A stretch of DNA of 64,000 bases from Bdellovibrio sp. (GTDB taxonomy: Bacteria; Bdellovibrionota; Bdellovibrionia; Bdellovibrionales; Bdellovibrionaceae). The position numbers were made by a program, and so were the translations under genes. The first letter of the stretch is position 1. Each line of letters starts with the position of its first letter. Positions 7,233 to 20,953 of this stretch are shown here, one piece after another. Below the pieces are notes generated by a model that saw only the letters and a list, made by a program, of their open reading frames with translations, was not told the origin of the DNA and made no database searches. The DNA is taken from assembly GCA_014376435.1 (NCBI GenBank), contig JACMRL010000019.1, forward strand, positions 1-64,000, read 5' to 3'.

Positions 7233-8165
7233 ATGAATGAAAAACACGTACCTGTCTTATTGAACGAAGTACTCAAATCTTTTGCCGATTTACCATCGCG
7301 CGAAAATTTAGTTTATTTTGACGGAACCTACGGACGTGGCGGTCACTTTCGCGAAATTGTTAAAAAATATAATCCTTCATTAGCTTTATTAACAGACCAA
7401 GATACTTCAGCCATTGCGCAAGCTAAATTAGATTGGGCAAAAGAAATTTCTGAAAATAAGGTAAAAATATTTCACCAAAATTTTTCTGAATTTGCCGAAA
7501 ATAACCAGCAAAAATTAGACATGGTATTACTTGATTTAGGCGTAAGCTCTCCGCAGTTAGATCAGGCCGAGCGTGGCTTCAGCTTTAACAAAGACGGTCC
7601 TTTAGATATGCGAATGAATCAAAACGCAAAATTAACGGCAGCCGAAATAATTAACGAATTTTCGGCCGAAGATTTAATCGAAATATTCAAATCTTACGGA
7701 GAAATATTTACTTCGGCACGCGTGGTTCGAGCTGTTGTAAATGACCGAGTAACGAAACCTTTTGAAACCACTTTGCAATTAGCCCAGCTGATTGAGCGCG
7801 TAGATGGATGGCAAAAAAAAGGTTTCCACCCCGCAACTCAGTATTTTATGGCCTTACGTCTAGTAGTGAATCGTGAATTACAAGTTATTGAAACCGCAAT
7901 TCCTCTTTTGATTGATCAATTACAGGACGGAGGTCGGTTAAGCGTGATTACTTTTCATTCGTTAGAAGATCGACTGACTAAAAATTTATTTAAGGACTCA
8001 GAGCTAGGTTTTTTAGTAAATAAAAAAGTAATTGTACCCACCGATGAAGAATGTAAAATAAACCCTAGGGCACGTAGTGCAAAGCTCAGGATTTTTCAAA
8101 AAGGCAAGACGCCTGAAAAACCTGATAAATTTGCTGCACGACGTGCTTTACGTACTAAGGATTAG
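7233..8165 (+). CDS. rsmH: 16S rRNA (cytosine-1402-N4) methyltransferase
   Basis: RsmH (MraW) methylates N4 of C1402 in 16S rRNA using S-adenosylmethionine, and it is the usual first or second gene of dcw clusters. The protein is about 310 residues. The start HVPVLLNEVL, the SAM-binding FDGTYGRGGHF, the DLGVSSPQLD motif and the C-terminal SVITFHSLEDR are all present. GAGGA sits 10 bases before the ATG at 7233 and only one base before the ATG at 7224, so 7233 is preferred. No mraZ gene precedes it; the upstream neighbour is on the other strand. Confidence 0.96.
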   Translation: MNEKHVPVLLNEVLKSFADLPSRENLVYFDGTYGRGGHFREIVKKYNPSLALLTDQDTSAIAQAKLDWAKEISENKVKIFHQNFSEFAENNQQKLDMVLLDLGVSSPQLDQAERGFSFNKDGPLDMRMNQNAKLTAAEIINEFSAEDLIEIFKSYGEIFTSARVVRAVVNDRVTKPFETTLQLAQLIERVDGWQKKGFHPATQYFMALRLVVNRELQVIETAIPLLIDQLQDGGRLSVITFHSLEDRLTKNLFKDSELGFLVNKKVIVPTDEECKINPRARSAKLRIFQKGKTPEKPDKFAARRALRTKD

Positions 8166-8193
8166 TGCGTAAATATTACCAATGAGGTCAAGG

Positions 8194-8505
8194 ATGAGCT
8201 CCGGTCAGATGCAACAGTTGCGGCCCTTTTTAAGTTTGTTATTTGTCATTTGTACTTTACTAGGATTAGTTTTTATCAAAATGGAAGAACGTCGAATTTC
8301 ATACGTCGTTTTAAAGCTAACGAAAGAACACAAACGAGCGATTGAAATGAAAAGACAAAAAGAAATTTCATTAGCTAAGTTAACACGCCCCCAGCTATTA
8401 GAAAATTTGGCCACACAAAGATTAACGCTTAAACGTGTGACGCCTAATCAGATCATTCGCTTAACTCCGACACAAATAATAGCCAGGACGGGTCTTGAAA
8501 TCTAA
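8194..8505 (+). CDS. ftsL: Cell division protein FtsL
   Basis: This small bitopic membrane protein of the divisome normally pairs with FtsB and FtsQ. The 103-residue product has a short cytoplasmic end, one membrane segment at about 11-30, and a periplasmic Lys/Arg/Leu-rich region suited to a coiled coil. Sequence similarity in FtsL is always poor. The call rests on size, topology and position between rsmH and ftsI. GAGG five bases before the ATG at 8194 favours this start over the one at 8182. Its end overlaps the ftsI start by 11 bases. Confidence 0.8.
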   Translation: MSSGQMQQLRPFLSLLFVICTLLGLVFIKMEERRISYVVLKLTKEHKRAIEMKRQKEISLAKLTRPQLLENLATQRLTLKRVTPNQIIRLTPTQIIARTGLEI

Positions 8506-10459
8506 AGTAGTTACGCTTTTTATTGCGGTTTGCTTCCTATGGACTTTACTTATTTTCCGCACAGCGTATCTGCAGTTTTTACCCCACGAAAAATTAAATA
8601 ATTTACAAGCTAAACAGTTTCAGACGGTTATTACATTACCGGCGCGTCGCGGATCAATTTTTGATCGCAACGGTAAAGAGTTAGCGATGTCTTCGCCCGC
8701 CTACTCTTTGTACGCTGATCCGAAAATTATCGAAAATAAAAAACAAGTCGCAAAAAAACTGGCGCAAATGACCGGCGGAAATTACCGCGATATTTATTCT
8801 AAAATTAAAGACGGTTCAAAACGTTTTATCTGGTTAGACCGTATTATTTCGGCTTCAACCGCCGAAGAAATTCGTGAATTAAAAGTTCGTGGTTTAGGTT
8901 TGGTAGAAGAGTGGAAGCGCGTTTACCCAAATGATAGTCTGTTAGCTTCAACGATTGGCTTCGTCGGAAAAGAGGGTCAAGCGTTAGAGGGGATTGAACT
9001 TTTTTACGATCATGTATTAAAAGGTGAAAAGAAAAAAGTAAGCCTGCGCCGAGATGCTCGGGGACGTCCACTGATTCAAGATGGATTATTATTTACCGAA
9101 ACTCCGCAAGGTAAAGAGATGAAATTAACGGTTGATGCCGATCTGCAATACTTCGTTGAATCTGAAATGGCCGCAACGATTAAAAAATATGAAGCCGATG
9201 GTGGGTGGGTCGTTGTACTCGATGCAAAAACTTCTGCGATCCGCGCAATTTCAAGTTTACCAACTTTTGATGCGAATAAGCCGGGTGCCTCAACGTCATT
9301 GGTACGTCGTAATCGTTGCGTCACCGATACCTTCGAGCCGGGCAGTACTTTAAAAACTTTTGTGATTGCCGACGCCATCGAACGAAATGTTGTTAAGCCA
9401 AGTACTAAAATATTTTGCGAAAATGGTTCGTTTCGCTTAGGAAAACGTGTGATTCATGAAGCTGAAAAAGCCCATGCGCAAGGAACGATTTCAGTTACGG
9501 AAGTTTTAGCAGTCTCTTCAAATATCGGAACTTCGAAAATTGCTTTAATGTTAGGTGATCAAAAATTAAAAGATGGTTTAGTTAATTTTGGTTTCGGACA
9601 AAAATTAGGGGTTGATTTGCCGGGTGAAGCAAAAGGAATTACGGTTCCTTTACCATGGAAAGATCATCTAGTTGCGAACGTTTCATTTGGGCAGGGGATT
9701 ACGGTTTCTCCGCTACAAATTGCAAACGCTTATGCGGCCATTGCTAACGGTGGAATCTTAAATCAGCCTTACATTGTTGAAAGTATCACGGATGTTGAAA
9801 CAAACGAAACGACGACGACGCAGCCAAAAGAAATTCGTCGCGTAATTTCGGCGGAAACGGCCGCGCAAATGCGTTTAATGTTAGCCGAAGTGACCGGTGA
9901 TAGAGGTACGGGCCAAGCCGCACGCGTTGCGGGTTATATCGTAGGCGGAAAAACCGGTACGGCACAAAAAATAAAAACGGCTGGCCGCGGGTATATGCAG
10001 GGCGGATACATCGCTAGCTTTTCGGGGTTTATTCCGGCGAATGATCCACAGTTAGTTATTTTTGTAGCGCTTGATCATCCACGCAAAGGTTATTACGGAG
10101 CGCAAGTCGCGGCTCCATTATTTTCTAAGATTGCATCTTATGCAGTTCGCCGCAACGGTGTAGCTCCGGAAATTTTGACGGAGAAAAAACTTTCTAAAGT
10201 GAAGATTGATAGCATGATATTAAAACCACAAGTCGAAGATAAAAAAATTACTTTAGATGATTCAACGCAAACGAGTGAAGCGGTTTTAGCTACGGACACT
10301 CCGCAGTTAAAAGCTTTAACAATGCGTGAAGTTTTAGCGCGGGCCGCAGATCAAAAAATTGAAGTTAAATTTGTCGGCGCGGGGCGAGTTGATTCAACTT
10401 GGCCAGAGGCCGGTGAACAGTTACCAATGGACCGACATATGACCATTTTTTTAAAGTAG
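8495..10459 (+). CDS. ftsI: Septal peptidoglycan transpeptidase FtsI with a PASTA domain
   Basis: FtsI (PBP3) cross-links septal peptidoglycan. This 654-residue protein has an N-terminal membrane anchor (about 5-25) and a dimerisation domain beginning ARRGSIFDRNG. The transpeptidase domain carries the three expected motifs: Ser284-T-L-Lys287, Ser341-Ser-Asn343 and Lys486-Thr-Gly. The last 60-70 residues, after a linker, read as a PASTA domain (TMREVLARAADQ...), a muropeptide or beta-lactam-binding module frequent in FtsI of Gram-positives and delta-proteobacteria. The start is TTG, overlapping ftsL, with AGGA upstream. Confidence 0.95.
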   Translation: MKSKVVTLFIAVCFLWTLLIFRTAYLQFLPHEKLNNLQAKQFQTVITLPARRGSIFDRNGKELAMSSPAYSLYADPKIIENKKQVAKKLAQMTGGNYRDIYSKIKDGSKRFIWLDRIISASTAEEIRELKVRGLGLVEEWKRVYPNDSLLASTIGFVGKEGQALEGIELFYDHVLKGEKKKVSLRRDARGRPLIQDGLLFTETPQGKEMKLTVDADLQYFVESEMAATIKKYEADGGWVVVLDAKTSAIRAISSLPTFDANKPGASTSLVRRNRCVTDTFEPGSTLKTFVIADAIERNVVKPSTKIFCENGSFRLGKRVIHEAEKAHAQGTISVTEVLAVSSNIGTSKIALMLGDQKLKDGLVNFGFGQKLGVDLPGEAKGITVPLPWKDHLVANVSFGQGITVSPLQIANAYAAIANGGILNQPYIVESITDVETNETTTTQPKEIRRVISAETAAQMRLMLAEVTGDRGTGQAARVAGYIVGGKTGTAQKIKTAGRGYMQGGYIASFSGFIPANDPQLVIFVALDHPRKGYYGAQVAAPLFSKIASYAVRRNGVAPEILTEKKLSKVKIDSMILKPQVEDKKITLDDSTQTSEAVLATDTPQLKALTMREVLARAADQKIEVKFVGAGRVDSTWPEAGEQLPMDRHMTIFLK

Positions 10460-10507: not shown

Positions 10508-11302
10508 CTAACTGCTAGCGCTTGAGTATTGGCTGAGACAGTAACGCCAATATTTTTTTAACAGCGTAACTAAAATAAAGGGCAGAACGATTCCCCAGGC
10601 AATCATCCAGTACTGAGTCGGTTCAAGTAAAATACGTGCAGGTATTGAAGCCACCATGGCAAAGGGAACTACAAAAATTAAAATAATACGTAAAAATCCC
10701 GAGTAAATTGCATCGGGTCTTAAACCTAAACGAAAAAGTGAAAACCAAACATATTGTAAAAAATCAGCGCGGGTAAAAAGAATTGCCGTGCAGTTTAAGG
10801 CAAAGCGTCCGCAGAAAATGACGGAAAGGCCCGCGGGAACCAAAAAGATCAGCCACAATAATTTAAGCCAATTAAAATCTGGTAACTGCGCTAAGGACCA
10901 AATGCAGCCGGCCGCCGTAATAAAAAAGCATGGAATATGTGAAATCGAAATACGTTGCGAGCTTAGCATAAACATCGAGTCTATTGGCTTCATCAACAGT
11001 AAATCGAGCGTGCCTTTTCGCACGTTATCGTTAAAGGCTAAGAAATTTTGATCCCAGAGTATCATGTAAATCGAATCAACAAATAGAGCTAGAAAAATAA
11101 AGACGCGCATCTGCTGTAAATTCCAATCACCGATAACGTTCGTGTGGCGGTAAAGAACTTCAAATAAAATAAGCTGAGTTGAGTACCAAACAAATTCGGC
11201 AATAATTAAAAATACAAAATTTAAACGGTATTCGATATCAGCGGCAAAGCTAGCTTTAAAAAAGGCCTTATAAATACTAAGGTATTTCAGTAAATTATTC
11301 AC
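10508..11302 (-). CDS. ABC-2 type exporter permease (second subunit)
   Basis: This inner-membrane permease has 264 residues and about six membrane segments, starting with the LNFVFLIIAEFVWYSTQLIL region. It resembles the uncharacterised ABC-2 permeases that occur in pairs next to one ATPase. Its start overlaps the end of the first permease by 4 bases (ATGA). With the next two genes it forms a complete exporter: one ATPase and two unlike permeases. The substrate is unknown. This family has been tied to export of lipids, polysaccharides or drugs, and the sequence does not tell which. The block is on the minus strand within the plus-strand dcw cluster. Confidence 0.85.
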   Translation of the reverse strand: MNNLLKYLSIYKAFFKASFAADIEYRLNFVFLIIAEFVWYSTQLILFEVLYRHTNVIGDWNLQQMRVFIFLALFVDSIYMILWDQNFLAFNDNVRKGTLDLLLMKPIDSMFMLSSQRISISHIPCFFITAAGCIWSLAQLPDFNWLKLLWLIFLVPAGLSVIFCGRFALNCTAILFTRADFLQYVWFSLFRLGLRPDAIYSGFLRIILIFVVPFAMVASIPARILLEPTQYWMIAWGIVLPFILVTLLKKYWRYCLSQYSSASS

Positions 11303-12117
11303 GCGCCGGTTCCCGTATACTGGCGTACGCCGCGTTTCCAGAAAATAATTGAAAATAAGCCCAAAACGGCAATCGCCCAGGTCACATTAAAAAACCCAGT
11401 TTTTAATAACTCAAAATCTCCGCGGCCCGATAAATAAGCTAGCGGAATATAAACGCCCGATGAAAAGGGAAGAAATAAAAATAATTTCTCTAAACTTTTT
11501 GGCATTAAATCGATCGGGACTAATTCGCCACTTAGTAACATCAAAGTTAAATTTTTAAGAATGGTAAATGAGCGAACGCGAGTTAAATAAAAACCTAAAA
11601 TCGAAACTAAAAAACTCATGATGTGTACGAGAACTAAATAATAAGTAACAAGTAATAAAGTAATCGGTAAACGTTCGTAAAAAATCGGAAGTTTAAAATA
11701 AATACTGACGGCCACGGGAACCATCATTGAAAATAAAGTCGTAATCAGTTTGTAGCCGATCATTTGACTTAAGTAATATTCAAAAAAGCTAATCGGGCGG
11801 CTAAGAATTGTATTGATGGAACCCGAAGCCACTTCTTCCGCCATCATCGATTCATACATCCAGCTGATGGTAATGCGGCCCAAAAATGGAGCCCATACGG
11901 CGTAAGCTAAATAGGACTCGCGATTGAACCCGCCGATTTGCGCGTGTTCGGCCGTTTTAAAGATCGCCAACCACAATAGAACTTCGATTCCGACCGTTAA
12001 AATTGGTTGGATAAAAGCATCGATGATAAAATTGAATCTGTACTCGAGATTGGTAACGATTCCCAAATTAGCGAGTGCTAGATTCCTTCGCCAAAAAGCT
12101 GCGAATGACGTCCTCAA
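11299..12117 (-). CDS. ABC-2 type exporter permease (first subunit)
   Basis: This 272-residue integral membrane protein has about six hydrophobic segments and the ABC-2 signature order: a cytoplasmic amphipathic start (FAAFWRRNLALANLG), then NLEYRFNF before the first helix. There are two TTG starts, at 12123 and 12117. GAGG lies six bases before 12117 but touches 12123, so 12117 is chosen. That leaves a 50-base overlap with the end of the ATPase gene, unusually long, which points to tight translational coupling. Confidence 0.85.
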   Translation of the reverse strand: MRTSFAAFWRRNLALANLGIVTNLEYRFNFIIDAFIQPILTVGIEVLLWLAIFKTAEHAQIGGFNRESYLAYAVWAPFLGRITISWMYESMMAEEVASGSINTILSRPISFFEYYLSQMIGYKLITTLFSMMVPVAVSIYFKLPIFYERLPITLLLVTYYLVLVHIMSFLVSILGFYLTRVRSFTILKNLTLMLLSGELVPIDLMPKSLEKLFLFLPFSSGVYIPLAYLSGRGDFELLKTGFFNVTWAIAVLGLFSIIFWKRGVRQYTGTGA

Positions 12118-13009
12118 AATCAACCTCTTCTACTTTGATATCCGCGACTTCCCCGGCGCCGGCCATTTCGGCTAAAACCATGGGAAGCTCTTGTGAATTA
12201 AATAGTTTTTCTTTTTCTTCCGTTGAATTTTTCAAACGGTAGATTAATTTCTTTTTCAAATCGGATGTCGTCATAAAGTGCTCAACAGTTCCGTCGTACA
12301 CGATTTGCCCTTTAGAAATAAGTAGCAACTGGTCCGCTAATTGCGCGATATCATCCATATAGTGCGAAGTTAAAATAATCGCCGGTTGATATTCTTTCAC
12401 GTATCTTTCTAAAAAATCACGAATCGCTGATTGGGCGACGATATCTAAGCCAATCGTGGGCTCATCTAAAAATAAAACTTTAGGGGCATGTAATAATGAA
12501 CCAATAATTTCCATTTTCATACGCTCGCCTAAACTAAGTCGACGAAGCTGTGTATCTAGCACTTGAGTACAATTTAATAAGTGCGCTAATTCATTCACGC
12601 GGGCACGGGCCACATTTGTATCTAGATCATAAATTTTCGTAAGCAAAGAATAACTATCGCGGGGAGTAATATCCCACCACAACTGATTTTTTTGTCCTAA
12701 TAAAATACTGACTTGTTTCAAAAACTCATTGTCGCGATCCCAAGGTTTATAACCTAAGACGGTTGCCGTTCCAGAAGTGGGGTAGATCAGGCCTGATAAA
12801 ATTTTAAGTAAAGTTGTTTTGCCCGCACCATTTGAACCGACCAGGCCCACAATTTTACCGGCTTCAATTTTTAAAGTGGCGTCTTTAAGAGCTACTTTTT
12901 CAATGTATTTACGGTCGTAAAAGCCTTTTAAAGAATTAAGAATTCCTTCTTTTTTAGAATAAGTTTTGTAAACTCGGCCTAAATTTTCGGTCTCAATTAC
13001 AGAACCCAT
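12068..13009 (-). CDS. ABC exporter ATP-binding protein
   Basis: This ATPase of 313 residues powers the two-permease exporter downstream. Walker A is GSNGAGKTT, the signature motif is LSLGERMKMEI, and Walker B is VLFLDEPTIGLD, all in the normal order. The C-terminal 80 residues after the nucleotide-binding domain (about 235-313) form the extra domain seen in the ATPases that work with such permease pairs. The gene begins 4 bases after the esterase stop region on the same strand. I do not know the substrate. Confidence 0.92.
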   Translation of the reverse strand: MGSVIETENLGRVYKTYSKKEGILNSLKGFYDRKYIEKVALKDATLKIEAGKIVGLVGSNGAGKTTLLKILSGLIYPTSGTATVLGYKPWDRDNEFLKQVSILLGQKNQLWWDITPRDSYSLLTKIYDLDTNVARARVNELAHLLNCTQVLDTQLRRLSLGERMKMEIIGSLLHAPKVLFLDEPTIGLDIVAQSAIRDFLERYVKEYQPAIILTSHYMDDIAQLADQLLLISKGQIVYDGTVEHFMTTSDLKKKLIYRLKNSTEEKEKLFNSQELPMVLAEMAGAGEVADIKVEEVDFEDVIRSFLAKESSTR

Positions 13010-13013
13010 ATCA

Positions 13014-13670
13014 CTACAGTCTTTCTTCGATGTAAGTTTTCATTTTCTGAATAACGGGCATCGGAATTTCGTGACCCCCGCGAAATGAAACAAAATTTGT
13101 TTTGACTTTATTGTCTTCAAAAAATTTCTGTAAGCGAATTGATCCTTTGTGTGGAAGAACCTGATCCATTTCACCGTGCGACATCAAAATTGCTGAATCT
13201 TTACGATTACCCACGGAAGCCGTCCATTCAGCTTCACTTAGTAAAGTGCCAGATAAACAAATTAAACCAGCTGGAGTTACCGGAGCTTTTAAAAAAACTT
13301 CCGTGGCTAACATGGCTCCTTGGGAAAATCCGCCGACGATCACATCTTTCCAATCAAACTTCATTGAAGTAAACATTTTCATCGCTTTATCTACGGCGCT
13401 GTTCATTTCAGTTGGGCGGTGCAAAGCCCAATCGCCAGGTAAGCTATTCATTTGTAAATTCCACCAAGCTCGCCCGGTAAAACCCGGACCAATCGGTACG
13501 CTGAGACTTCCATTCGGGAAAAGCCAATTACAGGGTTTTTTAAAATGAAAAGAATCAACCAAACCCGCTAAATCTTGTGCGTCAGCCCCATAGCCATGAA
13601 ACATAACCACCCATTTAGCGTTAGGGTCATTGTACACTTCGATAGCTTGTAGGGGTCCGGCTTGGCGCAT
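13014..13670 (-). CDS. Carboxylesterase/lysophospholipase of the alpha/beta-hydrolase fold
   Basis: This 218-residue cytoplasmic hydrolase (no signal peptide) belongs to the phospholipase/carboxylesterase family. The catalytic serine is Ser116 in GGFSQGAM. The acid is Asp169 in GEMDQVLPH, and His200 in RGGHEIP completes the triad. MFHGYGADAQDL near 23-34 forms the oxyanion hole. It is the first gene of the minus-strand block with the ABC exporter and is separated from the divergent murE by only 43 bases. The natural ester is unknown. Confidence 0.88.
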   Translation of the reverse strand: MRQAGPLQAIEVYNDPNAKWVVMFHGYGADAQDLAGLVDSFHFKKPCNWLFPNGSLSVPIGPGFTGRAWWNLQMNSLPGDWALHRPTEMNSAVDKAMKMFTSMKFDWKDVIVGGFSQGAMLATEVFLKAPVTPAGLICLSGTLLSEAEWTASVGNRKDSAILMSHGEMDQVLPHKGSIRLQKFFEDNKVKTNFVSFRGGHEIPMPVIQKMKTYIEERL

Positions 13671-13713: not shown

Positions 13714-15222
13714 ATGGGCATGAAACTCCATCAGTTATTTTCATTTTTCGATCTGAATGCAGCCCAAGCATCTGCCGACGAGCAGCACAAATCCTTGTTC
13801 GAGCAGGAAGTTACGGGATTGTTTTTCGACGCGCGCTTAGTAACGCCTGGATCAGTCTTTGTGGCAATCAAGGGAAATGAAAAAGATGGCCACCAGTTTA
13901 TCGACGAAGCGATTAAAAATGGCGCGATCGCAGTGGTTGTTGAAAATAAAAGCAAAGTTTTAAACAATGAATCATTTTTAGTGGTTGAAGCCCCGGATAC
14001 GCGTCAATTTTTAGATCTTTTGGCCGCAAGGTTTTACAATTTTCCTTCGCAGGAACTTTTTTGTATTGGTGTTACCGGTACAAACGGTAAAACTTCGATT
14101 ACTTATATATTAGAACACATTTTAAATGCGAATAATAAATTAACTGGAGTCATGGGCACCATTAATCACCGCGTAGGTGAGAAAATATGGAATTCGCAAA
14201 TGACCACCCCAGACCCGGTTACTTTGCAAAGTCGATTGCGTGAATTTAAAAATTTAGGCGCCGTAACTGCCGCGATGGAAGTTTCATCACATGCTTTAGA
14301 GCAAAAGCGTGCCGAGAGTGTACACTTTGATACGGTGATTTTTACGAACTTAACTTTAGACCATCTTGATTATCACAAAACGATGCAAAGCTACTTTCAG
14401 GCTAAACAAAAACTTTTCACGGATCAAATGTGGAGTTCGACTAAAAAACCTAAATTTGCAGTTATTAATATCGACGATTCATATGGTCGCAAATTAAAAG
14501 TGGCTGATGAAGTTGTGACGTGGACGTATGGTCAAAAAGAATCTGATTTTCAATTCAAAATTTTAAAAATGAGTTTTACCGAAACCGAATTTGAACTTAA
14601 AACTCCTTTTGAAATGATGAAGTTAACGGTGCCCCTTAGCGGAATGCATACGATTTATAATATCGTGGCTAGTGCGGTTGCGGCCCTCAGTTGCGGAGTA
14701 CCTTTGGCGCAAAGTTTTCAGTCGCTTAAAGACTTTCGCGGAATACCCGGGCGCTTGCAAATCGTAGATTTAAATAAAGATAAAACCGTTTTTGTTGATT
14801 ATGCCCATACGCCAGATGCCTTGAAGAATGTTTTAAATTCTTTAAATGAAGTTCGTAAGAATTCAAATCTTAAAAATAAAATTATTACCGTATTTGGCTG
14901 CGGTGGTGACCGCGATAAATCAAAGCGTCCGTTAATGGCTAAGATTGCGTGTGAATTAAGTGATCAAGTTTTTATTACTTCTGACAATCCTCGCACGGAA
15001 GACCCCCACGTTATTATAAAAGAGATCGAGCACGGCGTACCAACTGATTTTAAAGATTTTAATATTGAGGTCGATCGCGAAAAAGCAATTCAAGCGGCCA
15101 TTCTTCAGGCCTTTCCCGGAGATGTCATACTAATTGCGGGCAAAGGCCACGAAGATTATCAGATTATCGGAACAGAAAAAAAGTATTTTAGCGATTTTGA
15201 TGTAGCTAGGAAGTATTTATGA
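13714..15222 (+). CDS. murE: UDP-MurNAc-tripeptide synthetase, DAP-adding
   Basis: MurE adds meso-diaminopimelate to UDP-MurNAc-L-Ala-D-Glu with ATP. The 502-residue protein has the Mur-ligase P-loop GVTGTNGKTS, an NLTLDHLDYH stretch in the central domain, and the DNPRTEDP motif that selects meso-DAP over lysine. This shows a Gram-negative-type murein. An ATG at 13720 (MKLHQLF) is an equally possible start; neither has a clear ribosome site. Its end overlaps murF by 4 bases. The gene resumes the dcw cluster after the minus-strand exporter/esterase block. Confidence 0.96.
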   Translation: MGMKLHQLFSFFDLNAAQASADEQHKSLFEQEVTGLFFDARLVTPGSVFVAIKGNEKDGHQFIDEAIKNGAIAVVVENKSKVLNNESFLVVEAPDTRQFLDLLAARFYNFPSQELFCIGVTGTNGKTSITYILEHILNANNKLTGVMGTINHRVGEKIWNSQMTTPDPVTLQSRLREFKNLGAVTAAMEVSSHALEQKRAESVHFDTVIFTNLTLDHLDYHKTMQSYFQAKQKLFTDQMWSSTKKPKFAVINIDDSYGRKLKVADEVVTWTYGQKESDFQFKILKMSFTETEFELKTPFEMMKLTVPLSGMHTIYNIVASAVAALSCGVPLAQSFQSLKDFRGIPGRLQIVDLNKDKTVFVDYAHTPDALKNVLNSLNEVRKNSNLKNKIITVFGCGGDRDKSKRPLMAKIACELSDQVFITSDNPRTEDPHVIIKEIEHGVPTDFKDFNIEVDREKAIQAAILQAFPGDVILIAGKGHEDYQIIGTEKKYFSDFDVARKYL

Positions 15223-16637
15223 AATGGAATTTAAACCAGATTGCTGAATGGACTGAAGGAAAAATTTTATCTTCCGTGGAAACAGATTTTTCTGAAATCG
15301 GTACCGACACCCGACAAGATTTAACCGCACAGATTTTTATCGCTTTAAAAGGTGATCATTACGATGCGCACTTGTATTTAGATCAAGCCGTCGTAAAAGG
15401 AGCCAAAGCTTTAATCGTGCACGAACTTCCGGCGCATTTTGAAAATTTGAAAACAAAAGTATCAATCATTTTAGTTAACGATACTTTAATCGCATTACAA
15501 AAATTTGCTCGCGGATACCGTAAAGCTTTACCCGTTAAAGTTTTAGGAATTACCGGTTCAAATGGAAAAACCACAACCAAAGAATTTACGGCACAAATTT
15601 TAGGTGCTTATCGCAAAACACACTACAGCCACGGAAGCTTCAATAATCATTGGGGCGTACCAATTACTTTACTAAAAATGCCAATGGATACTGAATTTGC
15701 CGTCATCGAGATGGGGATGAATCATGCGGGCGAAATCACCGAACTAGTTAAAATTGCTGAACCAGATGTGGTCGTTTGCACGATGGTGGGAACGGCGCAC
15801 ATCGAGTTTTTCGGAACTCAAAAAAATATTGCTTTGGCCAAAAGCGAAATTTATTTAGAATCAGGTCCGTACACCACGCGTATTTTTAATCAAGATCAAG
15901 AATTAACTTACGACATGATGTATCCGTCATCGCGAAAAAATCCAAACGCACGCATGCTCACTTTTTCTGAAAAAAATAATGAAGCCGACGTTTATTTTAA
16001 AATCGAAGAACTTAATATGCGCGGTATGAAGATTAGCGGCATGATTGGCGGAGAAAAAGGCGAAGCGCAAATTCCCATTTTCGGAAAACACAATTTAACC
16101 AATTTGATGGCCGCGGCCACGATCGCTTACGCGTGTAAATTGAACCCCGAGCAAATTTGGAAGGCTTTGCCGCTTTGTAAAACGGCTTGGGGTAGAAATC
16201 AGTTTATCGAAACTGAAATAGGGGTCGAGATTTTATTTGATGGCTACAATGCAAATCCTGATAGCATGAAAGCATTGCTAGAAAATATCCCGCTGCTAAA
16301 AGCTGCTGGAAATAAAATAGGTGTTTTTGGCCAGATGAAAGAACTAGGAGACTTAGCACCAGTGGCACATGAAGAGTTAGGAAAACTTGCGGCTGAAGCG
16401 GGTTTTAAACAAATCTATTTCATCGGTGAAGATCACCTACATTTTTCTGAAGGTATTACTTCCACTAAATATACGGGCGAAGTTTTTATCAAGCCCGCAT
16501 TTGAAAATACGCTGGGCGAAAAGTTGAAAGCTTCGGTTAAGGCGGGTGACATCGTGGTCATCAAAGGCTCGCGAGGGGCGGGAACTGAACGTTTCGTTGA
16601 GTTCTGCCAACCCAAAAATTGGTCAACGAAGAAGTAA
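15219..16637 (+). CDS. murF: UDP-MurNAc-pentapeptide synthetase
   Basis: MurF joins D-Ala-D-Ala to UDP-MurNAc-tripeptide, completing the cytoplasmic muropeptide. The protein has 472 residues, with P-loop GITGSNGKTT, the SFNNHWGVP segment and the central E-M-G-M-N-H motif typical of MurF. The C-terminal domain has DGYNANPDSM. ATGA overlap with murE couples the two. After its stop the plus-strand murein series is interrupted by the polyketide cassette and queF. Confidence 0.96.
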   Translation: MKWNLNQIAEWTEGKILSSVETDFSEIGTDTRQDLTAQIFIALKGDHYDAHLYLDQAVVKGAKALIVHELPAHFENLKTKVSIILVNDTLIALQKFARGYRKALPVKVLGITGSNGKTTTKEFTAQILGAYRKTHYSHGSFNNHWGVPITLLKMPMDTEFAVIEMGMNHAGEITELVKIAEPDVVVCTMVGTAHIEFFGTQKNIALAKSEIYLESGPYTTRIFNQDQELTYDMMYPSSRKNPNARMLTFSEKNNEADVYFKIEELNMRGMKISGMIGGEKGEAQIPIFGKHNLTNLMAAATIAYACKLNPEQIWKALPLCKTAWGRNQFIETEIGVEILFDGYNANPDSMKALLENIPLLKAAGNKIGVFGQMKELGDLAPVAHEELGKLAAEAGFKQIYFIGEDHLHFSEGITSTKYTGEVFIKPAFENTLGEKLKASVKAGDIVVIKGSRGAGTERFVEFCQPKNWSTKK

Positions 16638-16844
16638 GCCCACCAAACTCGAATCGGCGTCAGAAAACAAAACTATTTACTGTATAGATGTTTTATAGGC
16701 ACTATTTATATAGAGCGAAAGCTTTAAAAATTGCTGTATTGACTACGCATTAGTAGAGATTTTTTATTACTTGTTTTTTATTTTGTAGAAAGAATTTTTG
16801 AAATTTGATTTTTATTAAAACTTTAGTTTGTTATTATACTTTTT
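16638..16844 (+). promoter_or_regulatory. AT-rich gap with a candidate promoter for the polyketide cassette
   Basis: The 207 bases after murF contain no gene. TTGACT at 16739-16744 is a good -35. TTTTAT (16762-16767), 17 bases on, is a weak -10 (4/6). A second -10-like TATACT (16835-16840) sits only 4 bases before the ATG and is probably chance. No strong terminator hairpin is visible after murF, so read-through from the murein operon is also possible. Confidence 0.35.
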
Positions 16845-17990
16845 ATGACAAAAACTGAACAAGAACCGGTTTACCTAAATAATTTTTTTCAAGTTTTACC
16901 TAAAAATAAAATATCACAAAAAGAAATTATCGACTGGACGGCAGAGTGCCATATTCAGGCTGAAAGACTCAATCCAAAATCGACATTTGACGAAAAAGAA
17001 TTAGTAACCCTTAAAAAATTTTTTGATCGTTATGCGGTTAAAGAAAACCAAATTTCGCAACGATATTTTGAATGTAATGATGTTTTTTCAAAAAGTTACT
17101 CAAACGCTGAAATTTACCGAATCGATAAAGAAATACAAAGTGGTACTAATATTTTAGAACGAACTCATTTTTTTGCGGCTCGAGCTTATGAGATATTCAA
17201 AGAAATTTATCAGTCAAATGTAAAACCGGATCATCTTATTCACGTGACTTGCACAGGATATATATCGCCGAGTGCTCCGCAGCGTATCGTGGCCGAAGAC
17301 TTATGGCAAAAAGTGACGGCAGTCACGCACGCTTACCATATGGGCTGTTACGCGGCGTTACCATCGATTCGTTTAGCGCAAGCTCTGGTAACCCAAGGTG
17401 ATACTCGTGTCGATATTGTCCACACAGAAATGTGCGGCCTGCACATGAACCCCCTTGCGCAGACTCCGGAACAAACAATTGTACAAACTTTATTTGCAGA
17501 CGGCCACATGAAGTATTCGGCTTCTCACGAAAAAGTTTCGGGCACAAAAAATCTCAAAATTATCGCTATCCACGAAAAAATAATTGCAGATTCAACCCAA
17601 GATATGAGCTGGGTTCCTGCCCCCTGGGGGATGCAGATGAATTTATCTCGCGAAGTACCGGCTAAAATAAAAGAGCAACTGAAACCATTTTTTTCGGAGC
17701 TCTTAGCTAAAGCTCAACTTAATTTACCGGAAGCGATGAAATCAATTTTTGCGATTCATCCGGGTGGCCCTAAAATTATCGGTTCAGTGCAAGAGGTTTT
17801 AGAATTATCGGATGAGCAAACAAAACAAAGTAAAAAAGTTTTATTTGAACGTGGTAATATGTCTTCAGCAACCCTGCCTCATGTTTGGAATGAGATTTTG
17901 AGCGCAGATCTAGTAAGCGGAACACGTATTATTAGTTTTGCATTCGGTCCGGGTCTAACTTTGTTCGGCTCAGTTTTTGAGGTCTGTTGA
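16845..17990 (+). CDS. Type III polyketide synthase (chalcone synthase family)
   Basis: Type III synthases extend an acyl-CoA starter with malonyl-CoA and cyclise the chain, often into alkylresorcinols or alkylpyrones in bacteria. The 381-residue length is usual. The catalytic triad is intact: Cys168 in HAYHMGCYAALPS, His305 in AIHPGG and Asn338 in RGNMSSAT. The C-terminal FAFGPGLT loop matches the family GFGPG motif. HVTCTGYISPSAPQRI around 133-148 is also typical. No clear ribosome site precedes the ATG. The gene overlaps the next by one base, and all three cassette genes are on the same strand. The starter unit cannot be read from sequence; a long-chain acyl-CoA is plausible. Confidence 0.92.
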   Translation: MTKTEQEPVYLNNFFQVLPKNKISQKEIIDWTAECHIQAERLNPKSTFDEKELVTLKKFFDRYAVKENQISQRYFECNDVFSKSYSNAEIYRIDKEIQSGTNILERTHFFAARAYEIFKEIYQSNVKPDHLIHVTCTGYISPSAPQRIVAEDLWQKVTAVTHAYHMGCYAALPSIRLAQALVTQGDTRVDIVHTEMCGLHMNPLAQTPEQTIVQTLFADGHMKYSASHEKVSGTKNLKIIAIHEKIIADSTQDMSWVPAPWGMQMNLSREVPAKIKEQLKPFFSELLAKAQLNLPEAMKSIFAIHPGGPKIIGSVQEVLELSDEQTKQSKKVLFERGNMSSATLPHVWNEILSADLVSGTRIISFAFGPGLTLFGSVFEVC

Positions 17991-18433
17991 TGTTTTTTCT
18001 ATATCTGCCCTTTGCACTTCAAGGTCTGGCAATGATGTTCGATGAATTTTATTTTCATCATCGTCGTGGACTAGCGCGCTGGGAAAAAGTGGGGCATCCA
18101 CTAGATACGTTGACAGTATTAGCCTGCTATTTATTTTTGTTCACTCAACCGTACAGCGCAACAAATATGAATATTTTTATCGGGCTGGCGGTGTTTTCAT
18201 GTCTATTCATAACAAAAGATGAATGGGTTCACACGGAAGTTTGTAGTGCTGAAGAAAATTGGCTACATGCTATTTTGTTTGTACTTCATCCAGTTTGTTT
18301 TTTAGCGGCGTCATTAGTATGGAAAGACCAGATAGATCAATCGTTTCTTTTAATTCAATCGACTATTATTTTTCTTTTTATGATTTATCAAATTTTATAC
18401 TGGAGTTTTAATTGGAAAAAAATCAAAGCCTAA
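17990..18433 (+). CDS. Small polytopic membrane protein with His/Glu clusters, in the polyketide cassette
   Basis: This 147-residue integral membrane protein has about four hydrophobic segments. It carries clustered polar residues of a kind that may bind metal or act in catalysis: DEFYFHHRRG near 13-22, a histidine in VGHP, KDEWVHTE near 73-80, and EENWLHAILFVLHP near 84-97. The pattern recalls small membrane oxidases or hydroxylases with histidine boxes, but it is not a match I can name. It starts at an ATG overlapping the synthase stop (TGATG), with GAGG 7 bases upstream. Its end overlaps the methyltransferase by 22 bases. A role modifying or moving the polyketide lipid is inferred from position only. 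Confidence 0.75.
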   Translation: MFFLYLPFALQGLAMMFDEFYFHHRRGLARWEKVGHPLDTLTVLACYLFLFTQPYSATNMNIFIGLAVFSCLFITKDEWVHTEVCSAEENWLHAILFVLHPVCFLAASLVWKDQIDQSFLLIQSTIIFLFMIYQILYWSFNWKKIKA

Positions 18434-19185
18434 AAAAAGACGCTGTTAATAACGACATTTATGAAACCTACGGCGAACGTTGGTATACGGCTTTCGACGA
18501 CCCAGTTGCTTTACTGCGCGCGGAATCTAAAACAAAAACTCCGTGGATCATAGATAAAATTCAGAACCATTATTCACTCGATAAAAACACCAGCGTACTC
18601 GATGTGGGTTGCGGGGCCGGCTTTCTTAGCAATGCTTTGTCAGAGGCCGGACTCAAGGTAACGGGCGTTGATCTTTCCGAAGAAAGTCTACGCGTTGCGG
18701 CCCAATATGATAAAACTAAAGCCGTTAATTATCAAAAGGCGGACGCTTACCATTTACCATTTGCAGATCAAAGTTTTGATATTTTAACTGCAATGGATTT
18801 TTTAGAACACGTCGAAGACCCAGCCGGTGTTATTCAGGAATTTTCGCGCGTGCTAAAGCCGGGCGGCCTTTTTATTTTCCACACTTTCAACCGTAACCCA
18901 TTAGCGCATTTAGTGATTATTAAAATGGTCGAATGGCTAGTCAAAAATACTCCGAAGCATATGCACATTATTCGTTTATTTATTAAACCGAGTGAGCTTT
19001 CTAATTACTGCGCAAAAGCAAATATGAAGGTGGAAAAAATGGTGGGAATCAAGCCGGTGTTCGCTTCGATACCTATAAAAAGCATATTCTCGGGAGTCGT
19101 ACCCAAGTCTTTACGTTTTGAATTAACAAAAAGCTTAATGCTTTCGTACATGGGCTACGCAGTGAAGTCGCGCACTCTGAATTAA
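18412..19185 (+). CDS. SAM-dependent methyltransferase, UbiG-like, in the polyketide cassette
   Basis: This 257-residue class I methyltransferase has motif I VLDVGCGAGFLS, an acidic strand-2 residue in VTGVDLSEES, and LTAMDFLEHVEDP for motif II. Its opening IYETYGERWYTAFDDP resembles UbiG, which O-methylates phenolic rings of ubiquinone precursors. That suits a partner of a synthase expected to make a phenolic or pyrone ring. Start is TTG with GGAG upstream, inside the end of the membrane-protein gene. A standalone role in quinone synthesis is possible but less likely, as no other ubi gene is near. Confidence 0.88.
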   Translation: MEKNQSLKKDAVNNDIYETYGERWYTAFDDPVALLRAESKTKTPWIIDKIQNHYSLDKNTSVLDVGCGAGFLSNALSEAGLKVTGVDLSEESLRVAAQYDKTKAVNYQKADAYHLPFADQSFDILTAMDFLEHVEDPAGVIQEFSRVLKPGGLFIFHTFNRNPLAHLVIIKMVEWLVKNTPKHMHIIRLFIKPSELSNYCAKANMKVEKMVGIKPVFASIPIKSIFSGVVPKSLRFELTKSLMLSYMGYAVKSRTLN

Positions 19186-19253
19186 AAAGTGGGCTACTCT
19201 GGCCGGCCGTACCCATCCTCGCTTTTTGCATTTTACAGGCTTTATTCTTTTCG

Positions 19254-19766
19254 TTAATAAACTTTTGAAAGATCGGTAGAGTATTTTCCCGGAGAGTAAT
19301 TAATTAAGCGCTCCGTGTAAATACCTTGGAATTTTTCGTCGTTGTTTGCGTAAGACGCAAATGGAAAAATTGCGATGCCTCCGCGTGGAGTGAATTCACC
19401 GATGACTTCGATGTATTTTGGTTTCATCAACTTCACTAAATCATTACAAATTTTCTGAATGCAATCTTCGTGAAAATCCCCGTGATTTCTAAAGCTGAAT
19501 AGATAAAGTTTTAAAGATTTACTTTCGACCATTTTTTTATCGGCAATGTAGTTGATAAATATTTTGGCAAAATCAGGTTGACCAGTTTTTGGACAAAGCG
19601 AAGTGAATTCGGTGCAGATAAAAGTGGTCCACGCCACATTTTTTGGATTCTTGTTATCGAAGGCTTGTAAAAGATTTGGATCATAATTTTGCGAATAAGT
19701 TGTGATTTGTTCACCTAGGGCAAAATTTTTAAGTTCTTTTTTTGAGCGGGCAGAGGTTTTTTTCAT
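19254..19766 (-). CDS. queF: NADPH-dependent preQ0 reductase
   Basis: QueF reduces the nitrile of 7-cyano-7-deazaguanine (preQ0) to the aminomethyl group of preQ1, on the way to queuosine in tRNA. The unimodular type is about 165 residues; this is 170 from the ATG at 19766. The thioimide-forming cysteine lies in FTSLCPKTGQPDF and the QueF motif ESKSLKLYLFSFRNHG is complete. A longer start at 19805 is open, but it adds an atypical hydrophobic end. Neither start has a good ribosome site. The gene is a minus-strand single inserted between the polyketide cassette and mraY. No queC, queD or queE is in the window. Confidence 0.93.
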   Translation of the reverse strand: MKKTSARSKKELKNFALGEQITTYSQNYDPNLLQAFDNKNPKNVAWTTFICTEFTSLCPKTGQPDFAKIFINYIADKKMVESKSLKLYLFSFRNHGDFHEDCIQKICNDLVKLMKPKYIEVIGEFTPRGGIAIFPFASYANNDEKFQGIYTERLINYSPGKYSTDLSKVY

Positions 19767-19876
19767 GCTTTTGGTAGTAAAGCAGAGAAGCTTATAAAGC
19801 AACATTTATCCAATGATTTCAACGATTTAGAAAATTTTTCTTGAATGTTGTAGGCTAGATGTGTTAGGAATAACAA

Positions 19877-20953
19877 ATGGTTTACCAATGGCTTTACTCG
19901 TTTGCCGATCAGTATTCGGTCATGAACGTGTTTCGATATATTACGGTTCGTACTTTCATCTCATTTTTTACGGGTTTTTTCCTGTGCCTAATCTGGGGAC
20001 CCCGCTTTATTGAAAAACTAAAAGAAAAACATTTCGGACAATTAATTCGTGAAGATGGGCCACAAACTCATCAGAAAAAAGCAGGCACGCCCACTATGGG
20101 TGGCTGGCTTATTTTATTAAGTACCGTTGTGCCATTAATTTTGTGGATCGATATTTTGAATCCATTCGTCATGGGCACGGTGATTATTACTTGGAGTTTT
20201 GGATTAGTTGGTTACTTCGATGACTACCTAAAAGTTTCTAAGAAAAACACGAAGGGCTTACCCGGAAAAGTGCGTCTGGCGGCAGAGTTTTTAATTTCCG
20301 GCTTAGTAATTGTTTATTTAATTCGTTATCATAACATGAGCACCGACATCACGGTTCCGTTCGTTAAGCAAGTGGCTTGGGATTTTGGTTACTATTACGC
20401 AATCATTGGTTCGTTCGTGATTGTTGGGACTGCTAATGCAGTTAATCTAACGGATGGTCTTGATGGATTAGCGATTGTTCCGGTGATTGTCGCGGCCACA
20501 ACTTTAGGACTATTTTCTTACATCGTTGGTCACGCTTCGATTGCTAACTACTTACAAATTCAACACGTGGTGGGAGCAGGCGAACTTGCACCCTTAGCCG
20601 CGGCAATGGTAGCGGGTGGTTTAGGGTTCTTGTGGTTTAATACTTACCCGGCCCAAGTCTTTATGGGCGACGTAGGTAGCTTAAGCCTGGGTGGTTTTTT
20701 GGGAGCCATGGCCGTGGTGACTAAAAATGAATTATTGATGGTTTTTTTAGGCGGAATTTTTGTGGTTGAGGCTTTATCGGTTATCACGCAGGTGATTTCA
20801 TTTAAGTTAACCGGCAAAAGAATTTTTAAAATGGCGCCGATTCACCATCACTTCGAATTGGGTGGAATGACCGAAACAAAAATTATTGTTCGTTTTTGGA
20901 TTATTTCCATTTTATTAGCGGCACTAAGTTTAGCGACTCTTAAATTAAGATAA
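19877..20953 (+). CDS. mraY: Phospho-MurNAc-pentapeptide translocase
   Basis: MraY makes lipid I by transferring phospho-MurNAc-pentapeptide to undecaprenyl phosphate in the inner membrane. The 358-residue polytopic protein shows GTPTMGG, the Asp pair in [34 protein letters not shown] and the cytoplasmic [11 protein letters not shown] loop, all catalytic or binding motifs of the family. TAGGA stands about 8 bases before the ATG. It restarts the murein series after the polyketide cassette. Confidence 0.97.

Follow-up and report, generated by a model that had tools for sequence, protein, structure and literature searches.

Why does a Bdellovibrio genome carry, among its division and cell-wall (dcw) genes, a type III polyketide synthase together with a UbiG-family methyltransferase and a membrane protein that belongs to no known family, and what might the three make together? 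For the 64,000-nucleotide stretch of Bdellovibrio sp. DNA analysed here (the window), a first-pass annotation had described a synthase with an intact catalytic triad, a small polytopic membrane protein and a methyltransferase, had read their overlaps as the sign of one translation unit between murF and mraY, and had proposed a methylated phenolic or pyrone envelope lipid made in step with wall synthesis. The layout was confirmed. The ArsB/ArsC-like synthase gene (PKS; 16845..17990, + strand, 381 amino acids) ends in a TGA that shares one base with the ATG start of the membrane protein gene (TGATG; MEM, 17990..18433, + strand, 147 amino acids), and MEM overlaps the methyltransferase gene by 22 bases (MT; 18412..19185, + strand, 257 amino acids, TTG start). 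GAGG lies 5′ of MEM and GGAG 5′ of MT; the reading of PKS, MEM and MT as one translation unit is supported. murF (15219–16637) precedes PKS, and mraY (19877–20953) lies 3′ of MT, beyond a convergent queF (preQ1 synthase; 19254..19805, − strand) that was absent from the earlier annotation. The 207-bp gap between murF and PKS (16638..16844, + strand) presumably holds the cassette's own promoter; promoter and terminator scans around the cassette stayed at chance level, and the RNA fold 3′ of MT was no better than that of shuffled sequences.

Compared with the copies in a sister genome (G007), the three genes gave pN values of 0.16–0.24 against pS values of 0.77–0.80, with synonymous sites saturated, indicating that all three are under selection as proteins. 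This contrast, together with a gene order that recurs across phyla, argues that the cassette is not a chance assembly.

The extent of that recurrence emerged when a MEM alignment was scanned against one genome per species (84,980 species), which yielded 175 relatives, of which the best 80 were kept. Among these best 80 of 175 relatives, PKS adjoined MEM in 78 and MT adjoined MEM in 74. An adjacent PKS was missing from a locus that starts at a contig start (L112) and from one that has none there (L120). Loci without an adjacent MT were either cut by contig ends (L087 and L109), of Bdellovibrio type (L079, L108 and L122) or had none there (L070). Three loci (L080, L089 and L110) carry a MEM–MT fusion. 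The 80 loci span Bdellovibrionota, Chlamydiota, Myxococcota, Acidobacteriota and others, although Verrucomicrobiota, Fibrobacterota and a single Nitrosovibrio-titled bin are assigned by bin title. Some of the titles look unreliable: in a quick tree, the cassettes of 'Verrucomicrobia' SZAS and 'Acidobacteria' BOG nested among those of Chlamydiota, so we regard Bdellovibrionota, Chlamydiota, Myxococcota and Acidobacteriota (Chloracidobacterium/Blastocatellia) as secure and the other phyla as tentative.

A survey of 291 genomes of the phylum, counted without regard to kinship, found PKS in 74, MEM in 74 (a tally that counts two MEM fragments) and all three genes in 72; every genome with MEM also had MT. 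Fisher tests on this tally likewise ignore relatedness and are not taken as proof. In the two MEM-positive genomes without PKS, MEM lies at or close to a contig edge. PKS occurred without MEM in G049, which also lacks MT and carries Tyr in place of a Trp discussed below, and in G278, an 85%-complete assembly. PKS and MEM are linked in the Bdellovibrio-type genomes searched, with MT (35–60% identical) elsewhere, and in G019 PKS and MT are linked, with MEM elsewhere. The three genes co-occur even when unlinked, and linkage is not required: PKS, MEM and MT form a self-contained, strongly conserved multi-phylum module that is independent of dcw position. A plasmid search found no MEM on plasmids. 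Separately, G275 carries a second PKS copy (C12:2726-4102) that has an in-frame stop and adjoins a truncated MEM, with an intact PKS–MEM pair elsewhere in the genome, suggesting that a cassette gained by duplication or transfer is decaying.

In our preferred reading, the module makes a long-chain, ring-oxygenated, O-methylated phenolic redox lipid by way of PKS, MEM and MT, an account whose chemistry we infer and on which our confidence is evenly balanced. PKS, judging from its closest relatives, would add three malonyl units to a fatty acyl starter and close the chain to a 5-alkylresorcinol. MEM would then hydroxylate or oxidise the ring in the membrane, through a cytoplasm-facing metal site, and MT, as a UbiG-type O-methyltransferase, would methylate the ring-oxidised product from the cytosol. 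The likely product would be a methoxy-hydroquinone or methoxy-quinone, comparable to hierridins or polyketide quinones, and would serve in the membrane as a redox-active lipid, either carrying electrons or acting as an antioxidant, rather than as a wall component. We counted in favour of this reading the conservation of the module, the ArsC-like synthase with its Trp, the single UbiG of a genome that has menaquinone genes but no UbiA of the 4-hydroxybenzoate type, 12 invariant acidic and histidine residues of MEM, redox-type neighbours of the cassette and known operons that combine a PKS, a methyltransferase and an oxidoreductase. Against it, no fold match ties MEM to any oxygenase, the Trp of the synthase is shared by Pks11, which makes pyrones, and by non-cassette PKSs, and the redox-type neighbours are confined to some lineages.

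The oxidising step of this proposed pathway would fall to MEM, which the first-pass annotation had rightly called a membrane protein but had passed over, although it is the most novel part of the cassette. MEM had no informative match in Pfam, NCBIfam or PDB sequences, and its remote paralogues likewise belonged to no family there. Its AlphaFold2 model, built from 65 sequences (mean pLDDT 94.1, pTM 0.88), has five long helices. Foldseek searches of the PDB returned no solved fold (best E 1.7), with COQ7, alternative oxidase, AlkB and fatty-acid hydroxylases or desaturases all absent from the matches, and those of BFVD viral models returned no match. Across the 65 sequences, 24 columns are invariant, 12 of which are Asp, Glu or His (D18, E19, H23, E32, H36, D39, D77, E78, H81, E89, H93 and H100). 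By predicted boundaries, these 12 residues fall where helix 1 ends, where helix 2 begins, where helix 3 meets a short helix, and where helix 5 begins, so that all of them share one face of the membrane. Loop 1 (HRRGLARWEK) and the C terminus (WKKIKA) are basic, which under the positive-inside rule would make that face cytoplasmic, in agreement with the C-terminal fusion of MEM to a SAM enzyme. Such an arrangement of residues is typically seen at metal sites in membranes and suggests a candidate metalloenzyme, which we infer to be ring-oxidising. Remote MEM paralogues keep most of D18, E19, E32, D39, E78, E89, H93 and H100, mostly lose H36, D77 and H81, and often lose H23; nearly all are in genomes without PKS, and no consistent neighbour was seen for them. 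One remote subfamily (L187-L204) is common in another family of the phylum, where it stands alone without PKS or MT and has lost several of the invariant His and Asp residues.

MEM might instead be an anchor, scaffold or flippase for PKS and MT rather than an enzyme, in which case the product would be a plain O-methylated alkylresorcinol serving as a structural or protective envelope lipid. The MEM–MT fusions would suit an anchor, and planctomycete PKSs yield plain alkylresorcinols in a foreign host (PMC10896814). However, an anchor would not need 12 charged or histidine residues held invariant across phyla, and MEM is kept where MT is unlinked and where MEM itself is unlinked. We consider this alternative rather unlikely.

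Genes found beside the cassette in other genomes point the same way as an oxidising role for MEM. An NDH-2-like dehydrogenase gene lies 31–45 bp 5′ of PKS in six Bdellovibrio-type loci (L122, at 7513–8823, and L030, L032, L079, L208 and L209), though not in all loci of this type, and its product is a possible direct user of the lipid. A thiol peroxidase gene follows directly 3′ in five Chlamydiota-type loci (−34 to +9 bp) and lies within approximately 2 kb in eight more, and an OhrR-like regulator gene adjoins the cassette in three lineages. All three kinds of neighbour occur in some lineages only, and none flanks the window cassette. Apart from the NDH-2-like genes, no oxidoreductase or hydroxylase of known type was among the recurrent neighbours listed for 105 loci. 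Many Chlamydiota-type cassettes (L063-L100) also have a TauE/SafE-family permease gene directly 5′ of PKS. A bolder form of the redox-lipid reading holds that MEM is the founder of a previously undescribed class of small metalloenzymes of the membrane, which hydroxylate or oxidise alkylresorcinols within an independently built polyketide-quinone pathway supplying an alternative electron carrier or an antioxidant to predatory Bdellovibrionota and host-dependent Chlamydiota; we advance it tentatively, as a possibility that falls well short of even confidence.

The ring that MEM would oxidise depends on the synthase. PKS has the Cys-His-Asn triad and Chal_sti_synt domains of a type III polyketide synthase: Cys168, His305 and Asn338 match exactly in the alignment with ArsC, PF02797 (66 bits against a cut-off of 27) and PF08541 scored above cut-off, and PF00195 fell just below (23.8 against 27). 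The best solved matches were the Azotobacter ArsC structures 3VS9 (E 6e-63) and 3VS8 (E 4e-61), and in a quick tree the cassette synthases grouped with ArsC, apart from the other type III PKSs of related genomes. These comparisons support the proposed assignment to the long-chain alkylresorcinol/alkylpyrone kind, with ArsC as the nearest solved match, and such a synthase with a methylating partner makes a methylated phenolic (or pyrone) lipid plausible. Trp256 of PKS aligns with Trp281 of ArsB and Gly284 of ArsC, so PKS carries the ArsB-type residue, as do all but one of approximately 90 cassette-type synthases compared. Within the Ars pair, Trp (ArsB) leads to alkylresorcinols and Gly (ArsC) to alkylpyrones (PMC6274091). 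Trp also occupies the switch site in Pks11, an alpha-pyrone synthase, and in non-cassette PKSs of the same order, and for this reason it is moderate evidence only for a resorcinol product. We rejected Trp as a strict resorcinol marker, as Pks11 makes pyrones despite it.

If PKS instead made an alkylpyrone, MEM and MT would tailor a pyrone. ArsC, the nearest solved relative, is itself an alkylpyrone synthase, and the example of Pks11 fits as well. We nevertheless judge a pyrone product improbable, given the Trp/Gly switch of the Ars pair, the near-invariance of Trp among the cassette-type synthases and the use of phenols or catechols by UbiG-type enzymes.

MT (METHYLTRANSFERASE) passes the UbiG model TIGR01983 (143.3 bits against a cut-off of 102.95), is the only UbiG-family protein above cut-off in the genome and aligns with 4KDC through the C-terminal RN...FIKP segment. 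The genome encodes MenA adjoining a MenC-like gene, plus MenG/UbiE. The rest of its UbiA family consists of a divergent MenA-like protein and a heme O synthase that scores just below cut-off and is encoded next to a cytochrome oxidase subunit; a 4-hydroxybenzoate prenyltransferase, UbiA, was not found in the genome (91% complete), and the MqnA/D family of the futalosine menaquinone route is absent from it. The presence of menaquinone genes with no ubiquinone prenyltransferase means that the organism most likely uses menaquinone and that the substrate of MT is most likely a different one. The phenols on which UbiG enzymes act are of the catechol type. A resorcinol becomes catechol-type after ring hydroxylation, which is the main reason for proposing an oxidising role for MEM. 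It is very improbable that MT is a true ubiquinone-pathway UbiG lying beside PKS by chance: its score above the equivalog cut-off would fit, as would a report, cited in PMC13386864, of ubiquinone-8 in B. bacteriovorus, for which no more than three homologues of the pathway were found, but the genome lacks the prenyltransferase, and MT keeps company with PKS and MEM across phyla, sometimes fused to MEM.

There remains the position among the cell-wall genes. The cassette is carried by five of 14 genomes of the genus (the window genome, G007, G010, G001 and G006). It lies between murF and queF–mraY only in the window genome and G007, and elsewhere in G010, G001 and G006, so that membership of the dcw cluster does not hold. 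Among congeners with a readable mraY region, queF, which is outside the pathway, is a conserved mraY neighbour, and the murF–queF interval of sister species is filled by unrelated genes (on visual inspection, a response regulator, a methionine-aminopeptidase-like protein, and a LysR regulator paired with an intradiol-dioxygenase-like protein); in G009 the interval is closed. This interval (window 16638–19253; L024, L146-L154) is a site of variable content with the cassette as one occupant, and the position of the cassette beside cell-wall genes is a local accident in the window genome. The first-pass annotation had asked whether relatives keep the three-gene order at this place or have the cassette scattered without its partners: the order is kept across phyla, whereas the place is not, and the position is scattered, yet PKS is nearly always accompanied by MEM and MT. 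Functional coupling to murein synthesis through the dcw position is scarcely credible, since its one support, the murF–mraY placement shared by the window and G007, recurs in no further cassette carrier examined, no murein or division gene is among the most recurrent neighbour families of the 105 cassette loci and the interval is occupied differently in sister species; as a conserved link it is already refuted, and the idea of a lipid made in step with wall synthesis finds no support. The dcw cluster of the window is also split between ftsI and murE by minus-strand genes (10508–13670) for two ABC-2-type permease-like proteins, an ABC ATPase and a carboxylesterase.

The module links MEM, an uncharacterised membrane protein family found in several phyla, to a single pathway and suggests for it one specific reaction that can be put to the test. 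Should the product prove to be a quinone, surveys of isoprenoid quinones would be overlooking a lipid with a respiratory or protective role in bacterial predators and in environmental chlamydiae, and the UbiG homologues of Bdellovibrio would be explained otherwise than by ubiquinone synthesis.

How does the cassette compare with known systems? Among Actinobacteria, pkqABC of Mycobacterium smegmatis and srs-type operons of Streptomyces make methylated, oxidised alkylresorcinols, and the quinones are electron carriers (PMC9927152). The cassette resembles them as a three-gene operon with a type III PKS bearing Trp at the ArsB-281 site, a methyltransferase and a putative ring-oxidising step; their oxidiser, however, is a hydroxylase or oxidoreductase, whereas the cassette has MEM and a UbiG-type methyltransferase. 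The hidABC operon of picocyanobacteria and the planctomycete operon likewise combine an alkylresorcinol type III PKS, a methyltransferase and an oxidising partner (PMC8086630, PMC10896814), but hidABC, in different phyla, has a HidB-type oxidoreductase where the cassette has MEM. The gene order also differs, PKS–MEM–MT in the cassette against methyltransferase–oxidoreductase–PKS in the hierridin/planctomycete type. Azotobacter vinelandii ArsB/ArsC are the closest solved relatives of PKS and fall in the same clade. The Azotobacter ars operon pairs its synthases with a fatty acid synthase, and we know of no MEM or UbiG gene in it. MT resembles UbiG in its TIGR01983 score and 4KDC alignment and differs in being tied to a polyketide module, sometimes by fusion, here in a genome without the ubiquinone prenyltransferase. 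A literature search found no work on alkylresorcinols in Bdellovibrio, but published listings include a T3PKS region in B. bacteriovorus LR3 (PMC12843806) and T3PKS clusters in chlamydiae (PMC9666466, PMC13229535). Operons that unite a PKS, a methyltransferase and an oxidoreductase make alkylquinones and hierridins (PMC9927152, PMC8086630). The cassette has a PKS and a methyltransferase in one operon and no neighbouring oxidoreductase of known type; by analogy, it probably works like the polyketide quinone and hierridin sets in all but this one defining feature, with MEM in place of the oxidoreductase.
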